Made by a program: the position numbers and the translations under genes | Notes under the pieces: model-generated | Database searches by the model: none | Seen by the model: the letters and a program-made list of their open reading frames with translations, nothing else | What the model was told of the DNA's origin: nothing | Assembly: GCA_944326695.1 (NCBI GenBank) | Contig: CALVEZ010000019.1 | Location: 1 to 64,000 of the forward strand | Source of the DNA: Candidatus Bilophila faecipullorum | GTDB taxonomy: Bacteria > Desulfobacterota > Desulfovibrionia > Desulfovibrionales > Desulfovibrionaceae | Length of the DNA: 64,000 nt | Direction: 5' to 3' | Shown: piece after piece, positions 35,721-46,431 of the stretch | Numbering within the stretch: the first letter of the stretch is position 1 | Layout of the letters: each line of letters opens with the position of its first letter

Positions 35721-37100
35721 CTACTCCACGTCGTAGCGCCGTAATTTGTTGTGCAGGGTAGCCCGGGTGATGCCGAGCCGACGCGCCGCTTCGCTCTTGT
35801 TGTCGCCCGTTTCCTGAAGGGTACGCAGGATGGCGGCGCGCTCAAGCTCGTCAAGGGTCATACCCACGGACTCGGGCTCGGCGGCGGGCTGCCCGGCGTC
35901 GGCGGAAGGTTCGTCTCCGTTCTTGAGGGCGTTTGACACCGCGAGCGGCAGTTCCCGTTCCGAGACGTAATCACCCAGACAGAGGATGGCGGCGCGCTCC
36001 ACGGCGTTCTCAAGCTCGCGGACGTTGCCGGGCCAGCCGTATTTGAGCAGCGCGTCCATCGCCTGCGGGGTGAATCCCTTGATCTCCTTGCGGTTGGCGA
36101 GCGCAAAACGCTCCAGAAAGGCGGTCGCCAACAGAGGGATGTCCTCGCGGCGCTCGCGCAGGGGCGGCACCTCCACGCCGATGACGTTGAGGCGATAATA
36201 CAGGTCTTCGCGGAAACGCCCCTCGTTGACCTCCTCGCGCAGATTGCGGTTGGTGGCCGCGATGACGCGCACGTCCACGATGATGGGCGTATCGCTCCCC
36301 ACCCGCTGCACCTCTCCCTGTTGCAGGGCACGCAGAAGCTTGGCCTGCAACAGGAGCGGCAACTCCCCGATCTCGTCAAGGAAAAGAGTGCCGCCGTCAG
36401 CCTGCCGGAATCGCCCCTCCCGGCGCTTGTCGGCTCCGGTGAAGGCTCCCTTCTCATGCCCGAACAGCTCGGATTCGAGCAGCGATTCGGTGAGCGCGGC
36501 GCAGTTGACGGTGACGAAAGGCTTGTCCCTGCGGGCGCTGGCCTCCTGAATGGCGCGGGCCACCCGCTCCTTCCCCGTGCCCGACTCCCCGGTGATGAGC
36601 ACGGTGGCTTCCGTGGGGGCCACCGTATTGACCATCTCCACCAGCTCGCGCATCCGCGCGCTGCGGCCAAGGATGCCGGAAGGATTTTCGCTGATGTATT
36701 CGCGCAGCTCGCGGTTTTCCGCCGCCAGCCGGGTATGGTTCAGGGCGCGTTCCAGCGTGAGGTGCAAAAGCTCGAAGTCCAGCGGCTTTTCCAGATAGTC
36801 GTAGGCACCCAGACGCAGGGCCGCCACCGCCGTTTCCACGGACTGCCACGCGGTCATGACCAGCACGGGGATGGAGGGGTTGTGGCGCAGGATTTCCCGG
36901 ATGGCCGAAATGCCGTCCATACGCGCCATGCGCACGTCGGAAAGCACGGCGTCATACGCCCGCTCCTTCACCTTTTCCACGGCGGTGTCCCCGTCGTCGG
37001 CCTCTTCCGTGGCGTAGCCCCAACCCCGCAGCACCGTACGCAGCATGGCCCGGTGGGCGCTGTCGTCGTCCACGATCAATATGACTGGTGGCGTGCTCAT
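35721..37100 (-). CDS. Sigma-54-dependent response regulator (ZraR/AtoC-like)
   Basis: A 459-residue NtrC-family activator. The receiver domain has the acidic pocket IVDDD and the phosphoacceptor D55 in AVLSDVRM. The AAA+ domain has Walker A GESGTGKE, the sigma-54 contact loop GAFTGA, and FLDEIGELPLLLQAKLLRALQ. A C-terminal Fis-type helix-turn-helix ends AARRLGITRATLHNKLRRYDVE. It should bind upstream enhancers and open sigma-54 promoters when phosphorylated. The GAGGAGG in front of 37100 sets the start. The partner kinase gene lies 366 bp upstream on the same strand. Four sigma-54 promoters in the window are candidate targets, two of them at adjacent ZraP-like genes. Confidence 0.95.
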   Translation of the reverse strand: MSTPPVILIVDDDSAHRAMLRTVLRGWGYATEEADDGDTAVEKVKERAYDAVLSDVRMARMDGISAIREILRHNPSIPVLVMTAWQSVETAVAALRLGAYDYLEKPLDFELLHLTLERALNHTRLAAENRELREYISENPSGILGRSARMRELVEMVNTVAPTEATVLITGESGTGKERVARAIQEASARRDKPFVTVNCAALTESLLESELFGHEKGAFTGADKRREGRFRQADGGTLFLDEIGELPLLLQAKLLRALQQGEVQRVGSDTPIIVDVRVIAATNRNLREEVNEGRFREDLYYRLNVIGVEVPPLRERREDIPLLATAFLERFALANRKEIKGFTPQAMDALLKYGWPGNVRELENAVERAAILCLGDYVSERELPLAVSNALKNGDEPSADAGQPAAEPESVGMTLDELERAAILRTLQETGDNKSEAARRLGITRATLHNKLRRYDVE

Positions 37101-37466
37101 CTTTCCTCCTCTTGCCGGACCGGGCCAGCCGCGGCGGGGCAAGACCCTCCCCCGCAAGCCGCACGGAAACATGCCGTTTCCCACCCGTTCCGGCCCATCC
37201 GAAATGCCTTTCCCCGCGCCAAATCAAGGCCCCGCTTCCTCCGCACGGCGTTTCCACGCGCCCTCGCCCGGCGAAAGGGCGGCACCGCCTTCCCGGAACC
37301 TCACGGCGGCCCGTCTCGGCCTCCGTGCGGAAAAAACAGACCATCACTAACGGACCAAATCCCGATCTTCCTCAGATGAAACGTTCCTACAGCCAATAAT
37401 AGTCACGCCGCCGTATTCGTCATCCGGCTTTTACGAAAGAAGGGAAGAAAAGGGGGCGGCCTCCCC
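37101..37466. other. Gap between response regulator and kinase genes
   Basis: 366 bp without a gene. I see no clear promoter or terminator. The regulator's ribosome-binding site is at its left end. Confidence 0.5.
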
Positions 37467-39248
37467 TTAGCTCACAGTCCGCCCTTGCTCAGCCGCTCCT
37501 TCCCGTCCGTCTTCCCGCAAAGGCAGCAAAATGCGGAAAGCCGCGCCCTGCCCCGGCTCCGAGGCCACGGAAATGCTCCCGCCGTGGGCTTCGATGATCT
37601 TGTGCACGGTGGCCAGCCCCAAACCGGTGCCCTGCCCCTTGGTGGTGAAATAGGGATCGAAAATATGCGGCAGGGCGTCGGGAGCGATGCCCATCCCGCT
37701 GTCGCGGATTTCCAGACGCAGGGCCTCGGCGTCGGGCTGAAGGCTCAGGGACAGTTCGCCGCCGTCGGGCATGGCCTCAAGCGCGTTGAGGCAGAGATTG
37801 AGGATGACCTGCCGCATCCGATCAGGATCGATGGCCACCTCCGGCAACGAGGGGGAAGCGTCGAAACGGACGGCCACCCCGCGCGACGCGGCGTCCTGCC
37901 CGATCAGGCGCAACGTGTCCTCCACCAGCCGACGCATCCCGATCAGGCGGGGCCGAATGTCCGTGGGGCGGGAGAGGCCGATGAGATCGCCTATGGCGCG
38001 GTTGAGCCGTTCCACCTCGCGGACCATGACCTGCGCGGCCTCGCGGTCGGCGCTGCCCGCCGGGAAGCGGCCCCCGAAATAGGTGGCGTAGCCCTTGATG
38101 GAGCTGAGGGGATTGCGCAGCTCATGCGCGACCCCGGCGGCCAGATTGCCCACCGCGGCCAGCTTCTCACGCCGCCGGACCTCGGCCTCAAGGCGACGGA
38201 CTTCGGTGAGATCGCGCAGGAACATGAGCGAACCGAGGCGGCCTTCGTCGCCTTCGTTGACATGCCCTCCGCGAACCGAGAGATAGCGCACGTCCTCGCC
38301 GTGGCGGAGGGTGATTTCCGTGTCCGCCAGCACGGGCTCGACGTGCAGGCGGGCCGCCAGATCGGCCAGCGCGGCGGGCAGCACGTCCGCCGCCTTGCGC
38401 CCCTGATAGGTGCGCCCCTTGGCCGGGGCCTCCATGCCGAGCAGGTCGAGGGCGGCCCTGTTGAGGCGGGTGATCCGCCCCCGGGCGTCAAAGACGACCA
38501 AGCCGTCCGGCAGCGCTACGGCCAGTTCCTCGGCCAAGGCTTCCGCCACCCGCTGGCCGCGCCGGGACGCCCGTACCCGTTCCACCGCGTGCAGCCCAAG
38601 CAGGGCGAGCATTCCGGCCAGCAGCACGCCCGCGCCCAGAAGCACGGCGCGCTCCCGGTTCTGCGCCTGCGCCACCTCCAGCGGGGCGAGGTCCAGCCCG
38701 AGGAAAATAAAGGGCAAGGGGCCTTCGACCGCCTCATCCCCGGGCGCGCGGCGTTCCCCCTTGGCGCGGGGATGAAAGGTCTTGAAGACGACGAAAGAGC
38801 GCGAACCCTCCATATTCATGATGGTCCACGCGGGACTGGCCGAGGTGCCGAGGGCGGCGATGTTTTCCGGCACCAGTTCCCGGCCCCCGAGGGTGGTCAG
38901 GACTTCCCCCACCCGGGCGGGGTTGCTGTGCGCCAGAATCGTGCCGTCCGGCATGGTCACGGCGATGAAGCGCACGTCCGGCCTGTCCGCAAGCTCCTCC
39001 ACCAGATATTGCAGCCGGATGCCCGTCCGCGAGCGCGTGCCCGAACGCACGCCGCTTTCCAGTGCGGTGATGAGCGCCACACCCTTTTCCGCCAGAAAGC
39101 GGACCATCGCCGTTTGCGAGCGGTCAAGCGAAAGCCCGGTGACCAGCACCACGCCGAAAACCAGCACCAGCGCCGCGCCGAGAGTCCCGAGGAAGGAATT
39201 GCCCCGCCGCACGTTGGGGGAAGGAGAAAAAAGCCCGGTCGTCTGCAT
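37467..39248 (-). CDS. Membrane PAS sensor histidine kinase (ZraS-like)
   Basis: A 593-residue kinase. TM1 is about residues 19-42, followed by a periplasmic sensor of about 160 residues (IRLQYLVEELADRPDVRFIAV, TILAHSNPARVGEVL), TM2 near residues 202-222, and a PAS domain (LPDGLVVFDARGRITRLNRAALDLLG). The dimerisation/phosphoacceptor motif is VAHELRNPLSSIKGY, and the ATPase boxes are NLCLNALEAM, DSGMGIAP, DPYFTTK and GTGLGLA. This is the ZraS/HydH type kinase that pairs with NtrC-like regulators. A sigma-54-like promoter precedes it (39303-39318), which suggests autoregulation. The ribosome-binding site is weak. Confidence 0.93.
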   Translation of the reverse strand: MQTTGLFSPSPNVRRGNSFLGTLGAALVLVFGVVLVTGLSLDRSQTAMVRFLAEKGVALITALESGVRSGTRSRTGIRLQYLVEELADRPDVRFIAVTMPDGTILAHSNPARVGEVLTTLGGRELVPENIAALGTSASPAWTIMNMEGSRSFVVFKTFHPRAKGERRAPGDEAVEGPLPFIFLGLDLAPLEVAQAQNRERAVLLGAGVLLAGMLALLGLHAVERVRASRRGQRVAEALAEELAVALPDGLVVFDARGRITRLNRAALDLLGMEAPAKGRTYQGRKAADVLPAALADLAARLHVEPVLADTEITLRHGEDVRYLSVRGGHVNEGDEGRLGSLMFLRDLTEVRRLEAEVRRREKLAAVGNLAAGVAHELRNPLSSIKGYATYFGGRFPAGSADREAAQVMVREVERLNRAIGDLIGLSRPTDIRPRLIGMRRLVEDTLRLIGQDAASRGVAVRFDASPSLPEVAIDPDRMRQVILNLCLNALEAMPDGGELSLSLQPDAEALRLEIRDSGMGIAPDALPHIFDPYFTTKGQGTGLGLATVHKIIEAHGGSISVASEPGQGAAFRILLPLREDGREGAAEQGRTVS

Positions 39249-39302: not shown

Positions 39303-39318
39303 AGCAAAAAACGCTCCA
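39303..39318 (-). promoter_or_regulatory. Predicted sigma-54 promoter of the sensor kinase gene
   Basis: The minus strand reads TGGAGCG-TTTT-TTGCT, with GG and GC 10 bases apart. It has two mismatches to consensus in the -24 part. The expected start near 39292 gives a 44-base leader. It stands back to back with the plus-strand sigma-54 promoter at 39362. Confidence 0.55.
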
Positions 39319-39361
39319 CCTGACCGAGAGGCGGACACGCGCGCTCATCCTCCCGTAATCA

Positions 39362-39377
39362 TGGCATGTTTCTTGCA
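39362..39377 (+). promoter_or_regulatory. Predicted sigma-54 promoter of the first ZraP/Spy-like gene
   Basis: TGGCATG-TTTC-TTGCA, GG and GC 10 bases apart, one mismatch to consensus. Transcription would start near 39388. A small hairpin GAGCCC-TTCC-GGGCTC (39396-39411) follows at the start of the leader. Confidence 0.72.
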
Positions 39378-39499
39378 AATTTTCCGGCTATTGACGAGCC
39401 CTTCCGGGCTCACGTACAGATCGAAACAGGAAAGCCTTGCGCTTTCCCTTACCATAGCGATTGATTCGATTTCTCGCCACCCGCGGCGAAAGGGATTTC

Positions 39500-40111
39500 A
39501 TGCATATATCCTCACAAGACAAACCGCGTCTCCCGCTCCGCCTGCTTGTGCTGGGAATGGCGCTGGCCGTGCTGCATGGGCCCGCCAAGACATGGGCCGC
39601 CAATGCCGCCGAAGGTTCCGTCCCGCAGGCGCAGCAGCCCCCCCCGGGCGGCGGTTCTCCGGCCATGCCGGACGCCTTCCCCGGCTTCTCGCCCGAGATG
39701 CCGGGCAAGTGCCCGCAGATCGCGTCCAATGGCACCCACGAGGGCACGCGCTTTGAAAGCCGGCTCTTCGCCATGCCGCTCCCGGCTGATCTTACCCCCA
39801 AACAACAACAAATCGCCTTGGCGATCATGCGCGAGGCGGAACCGCAGCTGACCGTCCTCCACATGAAGTTACGGCAAACGCTGGTGGAATTGCACAACCT
39901 TTCCTTCGCGTCGGATACCCCGCCCGACGCGCTGGCCGTCATCGGCCGCCGTCTGATCCGCCTGCGCGCCGAGGCCATGCGCGAATTGCAGCGCCTCTCG
40001 GCCCGGATGGAAAAGATGGCGGGCTTCAATCCCGGCTGGGGGAGCCGCGTGCGCGCCCGGGCCATGCCCGGCGTCAGCGCCCAATCCCTGCACGCTCCCG
40101 GGGATGAGTGA
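39500..40111 (+). CDS. Periplasmic ZraP/Spy-like stress protein (first copy)
   Basis: A 203-residue exported protein with a signal peptide ending near AKTWAANA. A Pro/Gly-rich linker (QQPPPGGGSPAMPDAFPGFSPEMPGKCP) is followed by a helical Spy/CpxP-type domain: LTPKQQQIALAIMREAEPQLTVLHMKLRQTLVELHNLSFASDTPPDALAVIGRRLIRLRAEAMRELQRLS. ZraP proteins are zinc-binding periplasmic chaperones induced by envelope or zinc stress. The Met/Pro/Gly-rich segments could contact metal, but the Cys/His clusters of the second copy are missing. AAAGGG precedes the ATG. It is transcribed away from the kinase, from a sigma-54 promoter. Confidence 0.82.
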   Translation: MHISSQDKPRLPLRLLVLGMALAVLHGPAKTWAANAAEGSVPQAQQPPPGGGSPAMPDAFPGFSPEMPGKCPQIASNGTHEGTRFESRLFAMPLPADLTPKQQQIALAIMREAEPQLTVLHMKLRQTLVELHNLSFASDTPPDALAVIGRRLIRLRAEAMRELQRLSARMEKMAGFNPGWGSRVRARAMPGVSAQSLHAPGDE

Positions 40112-40116
40112 CCCGG

Positions 40117-40151
40117 CGGCCACGTTTCCAAAAGCGTGGCCGTCTTTTTTT
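40117..40151 (+). terminator. Terminator after the first ZraP/Spy-like gene
   Basis: GGCCACG / CGTGGCC with a 10-base loop, followed by GTC and T7. Confidence 0.88.
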
Positions 40152-40295
40152 GATGCACCCCCCGCCCTTCCCTGTGCGATTCTTATACACTGTCAAAAAG
40201 CTCTGTACATATTTTATACAGCATATACCTCATCTTTTTCTCACACCGGAAAGCGTATAATGGCAAAACGACATAAAGTTCACTACTTACATCTT

Positions 40296-40311
40296 TGGCA
40301 CGCCGATTGCT
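40296..40311 (+). promoter_or_regulatory. Sigma-54 promoter of the second ZraP-like gene
   Basis: TGGCACG-CCGA-TTGCT is a perfect match to the sigma-54 consensus, with GG and GC 10 bases apart. It would start transcription near 40322. An imperfect inverted repeat CTGTA-N9-TACAG lies about 90 bases upstream (40204-40222) and is a possible activator site. Confidence 0.85.
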
Positions 40312-40362: not shown

Positions 40363-40866
40363 ATGACGTTTCGTAAAAGCACTCTCGCCGCCGCGCTGGT
40401 CGCCGCCCTCACCGGGGGCATGGCCCTCACCGCACAGGCGAGACCCGGCGATTTCCACCACGGCCCCCGTGGTCCGAGGCCCTGCCAAGAGGCCGTCTAT
40501 CAGGCCCTGACCCCGGAAAAGCAGGCCCAGTATGACGCCATCATGCGGGATTTCACCGAAAAGACCGCGCCCCTGCGTGACAAACTGTCCGCAAAGTACA
40601 TTGAGGTCCGCACCCTCGGCCAAAGCCCGACCCCCGATCCCAAGGCCGTGGGCAAGGCTACCGAGGAACTGGTGGCTCTGCGTAACGAGTTCGCCAAGGA
40701 ACGTCAGGCCATGGTCGAGCGTATCGCCAACGAAGTGGGCATCAACGTCCTCTACGGCGGCCCGCGAGGCCACGGATGCCCCGGGTATATGTCTCGTCCC
40801 TGTCCCGTCACCGGCATGGCCGTCATGCCGGAAGGACCGCAGGCCGATGCCCCCGAGGTACAGTAA
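40363..40866 (+). CDS. ZraP-like zinc resistance-associated periplasmic protein (second copy)
   Basis: A 167-residue protein with a signal peptide (MTFRKSTLAAALVAALTGGMALTAQA). It has an N-terminal metal-binding-like patch HHGPRGPRPCQ and the ZraP/CpxP helical hairpin LTPEKQAQYDAIMRDFTEKTAPLRDKLSAKYIEVRTLGQSPTPDPKAVGKATEELVALRNEFAKER. A C-terminal Gly/Cys/His patch follows (GGPRGHGCPGYMSRPCP). This arrangement is that of E. coli ZraP, a zinc-dependent periplasmic chaperone that dampens ZraS. AGGAG lies before the ATG; an in-frame upstream start inside the promoter is rejected. It has its own perfect sigma-54 promoter. Confidence 0.87.
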   Translation: MTFRKSTLAAALVAALTGGMALTAQARPGDFHHGPRGPRPCQEAVYQALTPEKQAQYDAIMRDFTEKTAPLRDKLSAKYIEVRTLGQSPTPDPKAVGKATEELVALRNEFAKERQAMVERIANEVGINVLYGGPRGHGCPGYMSRPCPVTGMAVMPEGPQADAPEVQ

Positions 40867-40983
40867 ACAAGCCCCCCCTCCCGTCGTCGGTTAGTCTCCC
40901 TTGCCGGCGGCGATAAATCCCTGACTCCCATCCGGTCAGGGTAAACAACAATCGGCACAGCCGTTTATATATAGAGCCTCCTC

Positions 40984-41051
40984 CAAAAAGCTTGAACGAC
41001 CGGTCCCCACCTGACCGTTTCACAGGTGCCTAGCTGAGTCTGTTCGTTCAA
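40984..41051 (-). terminator. Branched hairpin with T tract, minus strand
   Basis: On the minus strand TTGAACGA (41044-41051) pairs with TCGTTCAA (40992-40999). An inner stem CACCTG / CAGGTG sits between them, and GCTTTTT follows. It would end a short minus-strand transcript starting somewhere above 41064; see the small open frame there. Confidence 0.5.
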
Positions 41052-41064
41052 CGGCAAAGGTCAT
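41020..41064 (-). CDS. Possible 14-residue peptide (MTFAVERTDSARHL)
   Basis: A minus-strand ATG preceded by the very strong AAGGAGGAGG encodes 14 residues and stops inside a hairpin that is followed by a T tract. The layout, short peptide overlapping a terminator-like structure, resembles a leader peptide or a small regulatory RNA. No minus-strand gene lies downstream, because the ZraP-like gene occupies the other strand. It may be chance. Confidence 0.25.
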   Translation of the reverse strand: MTFAVERTDSARHL

Positions 41065-41107
41065 CACATCCTCCTCCTTACAGAAACCGTATCCTCCTCC
41101 TTCCGTT

Positions 41108-41146
41108 GCAGCGCCCCGTCTCCTCCTCCGGGGCGCTGCTTTTTTG
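41108..41146 (+). terminator. Strong intrinsic terminator
   Basis: GCAGCGCCCC / GGGGCGCTGC with a 12-base loop and T6. It lies about 240 bases past the ZraP-like gene, so it ends either that transcript or an unannotated small RNA. Confidence 0.88.
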
Positions 41147-41487
41147 TGCGCCTCCATCCGCTCGATCCCCCCTTCCCACGCAAAGGGCGCGACCTCCCCT
41201 CGGTCATGTCGGGCCGCCTCGTCCCCACCATCTCCAACTAAAGAGGGCGGCCTTCCATCCTTATAAAAAGACACCCCCGCACAGAAAGCCCTCCACCGCC
41301 TCGCGTATCCTGCCGTACCAACGGCGTCGTGCTTCCCCTGCGCCGTACCCCTTCCCCTTTCAAAGGAATAAGGAGAGAGGCTGCCCTCCTGAAAAGACGG
41401 GACTCTCTCCACGGTAAAGGGTGGCGGGGCCGGATGAAAAGCGGCAAGGCGGACCTCCCGGCCATCTCCTGCCTCGCCTTGGCGCGC

Positions 41488-46058: not shown

Positions 46059-46431
46059 ACGCGGCCCCCTGCCGCCCATGAAAAACCGCTTTCCCCGCAG
46101 GGCAAAGCGCGGATAAAAAGGCGGCAAAGCCGGTGCATCATCGAGCCGCCCTTTCGCCTTGCAACGCGCCGCCGCGAAAAACGGCGGCAGGGCGTTTCAT
46201 GAGGGCTGAGTCTTAAAAAACAGGAGGAGGGCTTTTCGAAGACACGCATGGGGCCGCCCCCACGCGGAGTCTTCGGAACCCCTCCTTCTCTTTTTCCCGC
46301 CCTGAACAAGGACGGGGACGACAGCGGCTCCGGTAAAGCCGCTTTTTTTCTGGGGCCCGGCCCTTGCCAGAGGCACGCCTTTCACCCGCCGGGCGGAGAC
46401 CGCGCCCCTAATTCCCTTCCGTGGAGTTTCC
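46059..46431. other. Gap between jag and mnmE with structured RNA signals
   Basis: 373 bp. It contains a long imperfect hairpin (about 46222-46288, arms including CGAAGAC / GTCTTCG and AGGAGGAGGG / CCCCTCCT) and an intrinsic terminator (46322-46349). The mnmE ribosome-binding site follows. No gene is supported. Confidence 0.55.
46322..46349 (+). terminator. Intrinsic terminator upstream of mnmE
   Basis: AGCGGCT / AGCCGCT with T7, 83 bases before mnmE. It probably ends the rpmH-jag transcript, which would mean mnmE needs its own promoter or read-through. Confidence 0.87.

Follow-up and report, generated by a model that had tools for sequence, protein, structure and literature searches.

The locus studied here raises the question of what a ZraPSR-like stress circuit with two ZraP-like genes puts out, and from which promoter. 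We analysed a window of 64,000 nucleotides from Candidatus Bilophila faecipullorum. An earlier note on this DNA had described a membrane kinase, a GAFTGA regulator and two ZraP-like proteins with three sigma-54-like sites; all of these were present at the positions it gave. The four genes are as follows.

35721-37100, minus strand: ZraR-like NtrC-type response regulator with receiver, AAA+ (carrying GAFTGA) and Fis-type HTH (PF00158, PF00072, PF02954)
37467-39248, minus strand: ZraS-like membrane histidine kinase with a single Cache, PAS, HisKA and HATPase (PF17203, PF08448, PF00512, PF02518)
39500-40111, plus strand: ZP1, a ZraP-fold periplasmic protein of 203 aa from an old and divergent subfamily that lacks a Gly/His-rich tail
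40363-40866, plus strand: ZP2, a ZraP-type periplasmic protein of 167 aa in which both ends carry Cys/His clusters

The best NCBI model of the kinase was ZraS (NF007688; 471.4 bits, just under the equivalog cut-off of 479), and that of the regulator was ZraR (NF007689; 602.6 bits, below the equivalog cut-off of 760). The structure models of ZP1 and ZP2 both showed the ZraP helical hairpin, and the top PDB match of each was 3LAY (Salmonella ZraP), with a target TM of about 0.86 and 0.94 for the two models. The two sequence profiles likewise had this entry as their best PDB hit (E 1.8e-16 and 7.8e-4). Moreover, RpoN is encoded in the 3.63-Mb genome. The proposed ZraPSR-like circuit with sigma-54 control is thus supported by the ZraP fold of both small proteins and the presence of RpoN. 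A gap of 366 bp (37101-37466) separates the kinase and regulator genes in the window; in relatives these genes directly adjoin or overlap one another.

A circuit of this basic kind has been described in Desulfovibrio, where DVU3381 controls DVU3382-3381 and DVU3384. According to the available excerpts of the two reports, D. vulgaris DVU3381 was assigned these targets under 'envelope stress response' (PMC4641369), and gel-shift assays confirmed that it binds a predicted motif (PMC3333781). The Hildenborough system DVU3381/DVU3382/DVU3384 resembles the window in being, as those excerpts have it, a two-component system whose GAFTGA regulator controls its own operon and a divergent gene. It differs in that the excerpts list a single divergent target gene and mention no 3'UTR RNA.

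We then compared the two small proteins. The best NCBI model of ZP2 was ZraP (NF008584; 32.7 bits, equivalog cut-off 200), and ZP1 gave no match to this equivalog. For Pfam Metal_resist (PF13801, gathering cut-off 29.2), ZP2 scored above the cut-off with 55.7 bits and the window ZP1 below it with 19.6. The contrast in Cys/His patches that had been claimed for the two copies held for clusters, which ZP2 has (HHGPRGPRPC and HGCPGYMSRPC), but not for overall histidine content, since ZP1 contains six His and ZP2 three. Over the tandem loci, the last 45 residues held on average 1.8 His plus Cys in ZP1 and 3.5 in ZP2. A tree built from 75 ZraP-like proteins united the proximal copy from each of nine tandem loci with four copies from loci lacking ZP2 in a single clade (bootstrap 100, SH-aLRT 96). 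Because ZP1 makes up one clade over at least three genera, the split between ZP1 and ZP2 is old. The tree rules out a recent tandem duplication, and the idea of a "duplicated version" of the locus was not borne out: ZP1 is an old ZraP paralogue. The ZP1 protein was found in 62 of the 288 family genomes, and ZP2 stood in tandem with it in 34, spread over three genera. ZP1 accompanies the kinase even where ZP2 has been lost, which fits a kinase-accessory role, and ZP1 is probably an accessory or feedback partner of the kinase. The genome also holds a third ZraP-like ORF (G000:C23, L166:2631-3479), with no kinase or sigma-54 site nearby and a tRNA-like sequence upstream.

The sigma-54-like sites were examined next, in the window and in 30 further tandem loci. 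At all three positions the sequence was exactly as previously given.

39303-39318, minus strand: kinase sigma-54-like site TGGAGCGTTTTTTGCT, two mismatches to TGGCACGNNNNTTGCW, weakly supported
39362-39377, plus strand: ZP1 sigma-54-like promoter TGGCATGTTTCTTGCA, one mismatch, inside a block conserved in the same-genus locus L046
40296-40311, plus strand: ZP2 sigma-54 promoter TGGCACGCCGATTGCT, no mismatch to TGGCACGNNNNTTGCW

The window contains 12 sites with at most two mismatches, against 11.6 expected, so the weaker two, those of the kinase and ZP1, mean nothing by motif alone. Only four perfect sites occur in the whole genome, and two of these precede ZraP genes. The ZP2 site is perfect in L046 as well. 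The earlier note had held that related loci without sigma-54 sites would speak against it; the gap between ZP1 and ZP2 carried such a site (at most one mismatch) in 30 of the 30 other tandem loci, so this refutation fails. A relative of the ZP1 site, mostly T[TACG]GCAYGNTTTTTGCA, was conserved in most other loci. On the kinase side, the window and L046 have the 10-mer GCAAAAAACG in common; conservation of this site over the tandem loci was rejected, a comparable site being absent from most of those in other genera. Of the three promoters proposed, that of ZP2 is thus very strongly conserved and that of ZP1 well conserved, whereas the kinase site combines weak conservation with a chance-level motif.

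Related arrangements were seen elsewhere. A paralogous second kinase-regulator-ZraP locus in the same genome (G000:C18, L165:734-4907) carries the identical 16-base sigma-54 core TGGCACGCCGATTGCT. At single-ZraP loci (L138, L144, L150, L177, L178, L030, L040, L045 and others), the sigma-54 sites of ZraP and the kinase face each other and overlap, lying 25-28 bp apart from start to start in 13 distinct loci; a facing site occurred in 23 of 2000 shuffled 60-mers. A polymerase bound at one of these facing promoters would be expected to keep another off the second, and vice versa.

Three features of the region had not been noticed before: a pair of enhancer sites, a terminator behind ZP1, and a conserved RNA element in the 3'UTR of ZP2. 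The first two lie in the gap between the chaperone genes.

40115-40151, plus strand: intrinsic terminator after ZP1, with a 13-bp stem and T7
40172-40190, plus strand: enhancer (UAS) site 1 CTGTGCGATTCTTATACAC, 15.8 bits, the second-highest score in the 64-kb window for a matrix derived from other genomes
40203-40221, plus strand: enhancer (UAS) site 2 CTGTACATATTTTATACAG, 24.1 bits, best in the 64-kb window

Since a terminator stands 3' of ZP1, ZP1 and ZP2 form separate units. Spaced by 31 bp, or about three turns of the helix, the twin enhancers precede the ZP2 promoter by roughly 75-105 bp and have the form TGT-N11-ACA. This motif was present in 21 of 45 regions upstream of sigma-54-bearing ZraP genes, compared with 2.5 in shuffles, none of which equalled it (0/200). 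The enhancer matrix was built from those upstream regions with the window left out; as it was trained partly on other tandem loci, the window and the loci outside the training set are the independent tests. In the window, the next-best score after both sites was 6.3 bits, and site 2 was the sole match in the genome at up to three mismatches. At least one enhancer site was found in the ZP1-ZP2 gap of all 30 other tandem loci, and the matrix and motif scan returned none in the gap between the kinase and ZP1, either in the window or in the 30 loci. A shared enhancer for the divergent kinase and ZP1 promoters was therefore discarded, as no site lies between them. The full predicted control module, a perfect sigma-54 site with twin enhancers, is carried by ZP2 only.

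Downstream of ZP2, we identified an RNA element.

40867-41145, plus strand: ZP2 3'UTR, proposed small RNA, with four unpaired CCUCCUCC at 40977, 41070, 41093 and 41122; model match 40981-41149
41108-41145, plus strand: RNA terminator, whose hairpin loop displays the last CCUCCUCC

Four CCTCCTCC lie in the ZP2 3'UTR; the whole window holds 15 on both strands, against 4.2 expected. CCTCC occurs nine times in this 3'UTR, compared with 1.2 in shuffles. Its predicted fold was better than that of 200 of 200 shuffles (z = -4.65), with all four motifs unpaired. With RNA models from which the window had been left out, the ZP2 3'UTR was the best match in 64 kb (19.2 bits, E = 0.001), and a later window-free model again placed it first there (28.8 bits, E = 7.1e-6). 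The score of 28.8 bits marks the window RNA as divergent from the model, and a scan of its own genome with the same model under looser first-look filters returned nothing, so the window match is weak for the larger search space. A conserved RNA element thus lies directly behind the stress gene ZP2 and ends in its own terminator, the arrangement of a 3'UTR-derived small RNA. Another, weak match to the model within the window, at 46175-46280 on the minus strand (16.4 bits), has one CCTCCTCC, and no sigma-54 or enhancer site was found near it.

We further studied the element in relatives. It runs in the order small hairpin, AUAUA, larger hairpin, CCUCCUCC linkers and terminator, and forms the ZP2 3'UTR in most tandem loci; five tandem loci showed no clear element. 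When 44 sequences were aligned, 15 of the 16 base pairs showed substitutions of both partners that kept the pairing, and covariation cells numbered 85, compared with 19.8 in shuffled and at most 18 in slid controls. This alignment was fitted to the structure; a first, independent alignment also gave five such pairs. The CCUCC motifs are conserved, unpaired, between the helices. Moreover, the element evolves independently of the ZP2 gene. At ZP1 loci without a detectable ZP2 gene, the enhancers still followed ZP1 in 14 of 15, and 13 of those 14 had a sigma-54 site (at most one mismatch, same scan). At 12 of these loci, the promoter with enhancers is followed by 250-510 nt without a consistent ORF and then by the same element at the end; a small protein in place of the RNA was dismissed on this ground. 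Another 12 copies lie off the Zra locus in four genomes (four each in G088 and G145, two each in G100 and G113). All 12 have an upstream sigma-54 site with at most one mismatch, 11 of them perfect, and ten have an enhancer site; one of the other two ends at a contig edge. Within the genus, one genome (G001) has no ZraP at the kinase locus and keeps the twin enhancers, the sigma-54 site and a putative RNA of about 490 nt with CCTCCTCCTCC in the loop of its final hairpin; in another (G003), the ZraP terminator loop also shows CCTCCTCC. In G089 (L174:4316-5634), a transposase-like gene separates the RNA element from the sigma-54 promoter.

Based on these results, we read the locus, with a probability of about two in three, as a ZraPSR-like envelope or metal stress circuit whose strongest output would be one transcript with two products, the ZP2 chaperone and a small RNA. 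The kinase would sense periplasmic stress and phosphorylate the regulator, which would bind the twin enhancers at 40172-40221 and activate sigma-54 polymerase at 40296. The resulting transcript would encode the metal-type chaperone ZP2 and carry at its end a structured 3'UTR that would constitute a small RNA or be processed into one. By exposing several CCUCC anti-Shine-Dalgarno motifs, this RNA may pair with GGAGG ribosome-binding sites and repress the mRNAs concerned, a complementarity that is generic to ribosome-binding sites. The regulator's own GAGGAGG ribosome-binding site was considered as a target and set aside, being possible in the window and inconsistent in relatives. ZP1 would be transcribed apart from ZP2, from a weaker sigma-54-type promoter of its own and with its own terminator. 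Because in relatives a promoter of the same kind precedes the RNA without a ZP2 gene, the element is probably an unrecognised regulatory RNA. Judged from sequence, the likeliest description is a sigma-54-driven small RNA from a zraP 3'UTR, CpxQ-like in logic and CcsR-like in motif. It probably belongs to a new Desulfovibrionaceae family of anti-Shine-Dalgarno small RNAs under sigma-54/ZraR-type control, encoded as a zraP 3'UTR, as the sole promoter product where zraP is absent and, in some genomes, as several stand-alone genes.

Conservation of a 3'UTR can also be explained by mRNA stability or termination alone, and the element may merely terminate and protect the ZP2 mRNA with no effect on other mRNAs. 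Its position directly behind ZP2 in the window and most tandem loci agrees with this, as does the frequency of structured C-rich 3'UTRs with terminators in these GC-rich genomes. We regard this explanation as unlikely, because 12 Zra loci have the element with no ORF and a further 12 copies lie elsewhere, each with a sigma-54 promoter of its own, and because unpaired CCUCC motifs are conserved between the helices of the element.

Two further explanations were weighed against it. The unpaired linkers and loops with their short repeated motifs resemble the design of a titrating RNA, in which the CCUCC arrays would capture and inactivate a different RNA or an RNA-binding protein, not mRNA ribosome-binding sites; given that CCUCC is the exact complement of Shine-Dalgarno sequences and that no partner is known, we consider this very improbable. 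It is quite improbable that the locus is a duplicated ZraP pair sensing or holding different stress signals and controlled by nothing more than three local sigma-54 promoters. The two ZraP-fold proteins, the three sites and the unlike tails are what such a view would predict, but the split is old, enhancers stand before ZP2 only, the kinase site is at chance level by motif, and the RNA is left out of account.

Compared with known systems, the window shares ZraS- and ZraR-like proteins, and the ZraP fold (3LAY), with putative divergent sigma-54 promoters (here strong for ZP2, conserved for ZP1 and weak for the kinase), with E. coli/Salmonella ZraPSR, in which ZraP is a zinc-linked periplasmic chaperone under ZraSR control (PMC8264917). 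In contrast to ZraPSR, it has a Cache sensor, separate units for its two chaperone paralogues, a twin enhancer before the distal gene and a predicted RNA in the 3'UTR, and its kinase, regulator and ZP2 all fall under the NCBI equivalog cut-offs. The small RNA CpxQ derives from the cpxP 3'UTR (PMC4817254); in both cases the mRNA of an envelope-stress chaperone of the same fold class yields a small RNA from its 3'UTR (predicted here), whereas the window system differs in regulator type, sigma factor and sequence, in its repeated CCUCC and in its stand-alone copies with their own promoters. The Rhodobacter CcsR1 RNAs (RF02791) likewise display CCUCCUCC in hairpin loops and are stress-linked, but they are alphaproteobacterial and are not sigma-54-driven zraP 3'UTRs. 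With 27.7 bits against a gathering score of 65.3, the window RNA is not a CcsR1 member; in Rfam, no family reached its cut-off, with sub-threshold matches only, and a limited literature search found no report of this RNA.

If the reading is true, annotation has missed an RNA regulator that belongs to the main output of an envelope-stress circuit widespread in sulfate reducers, and a CpxQ-like pairing of chaperone and RNA exists in an unrelated regulatory system. The loci in different states (gene with RNA, RNA alone, extra RNA copies) would form a rare natural series under one promoter type, from 3'UTR-derived small RNA to stand-alone small-RNA gene, making the origin directly testable. As for metals, zraP (Dde_0111) was the most down-regulated gene in D. 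alaskensis G20 under copper (PMC8836040), the opposite of a simple metal-induced chaperone.
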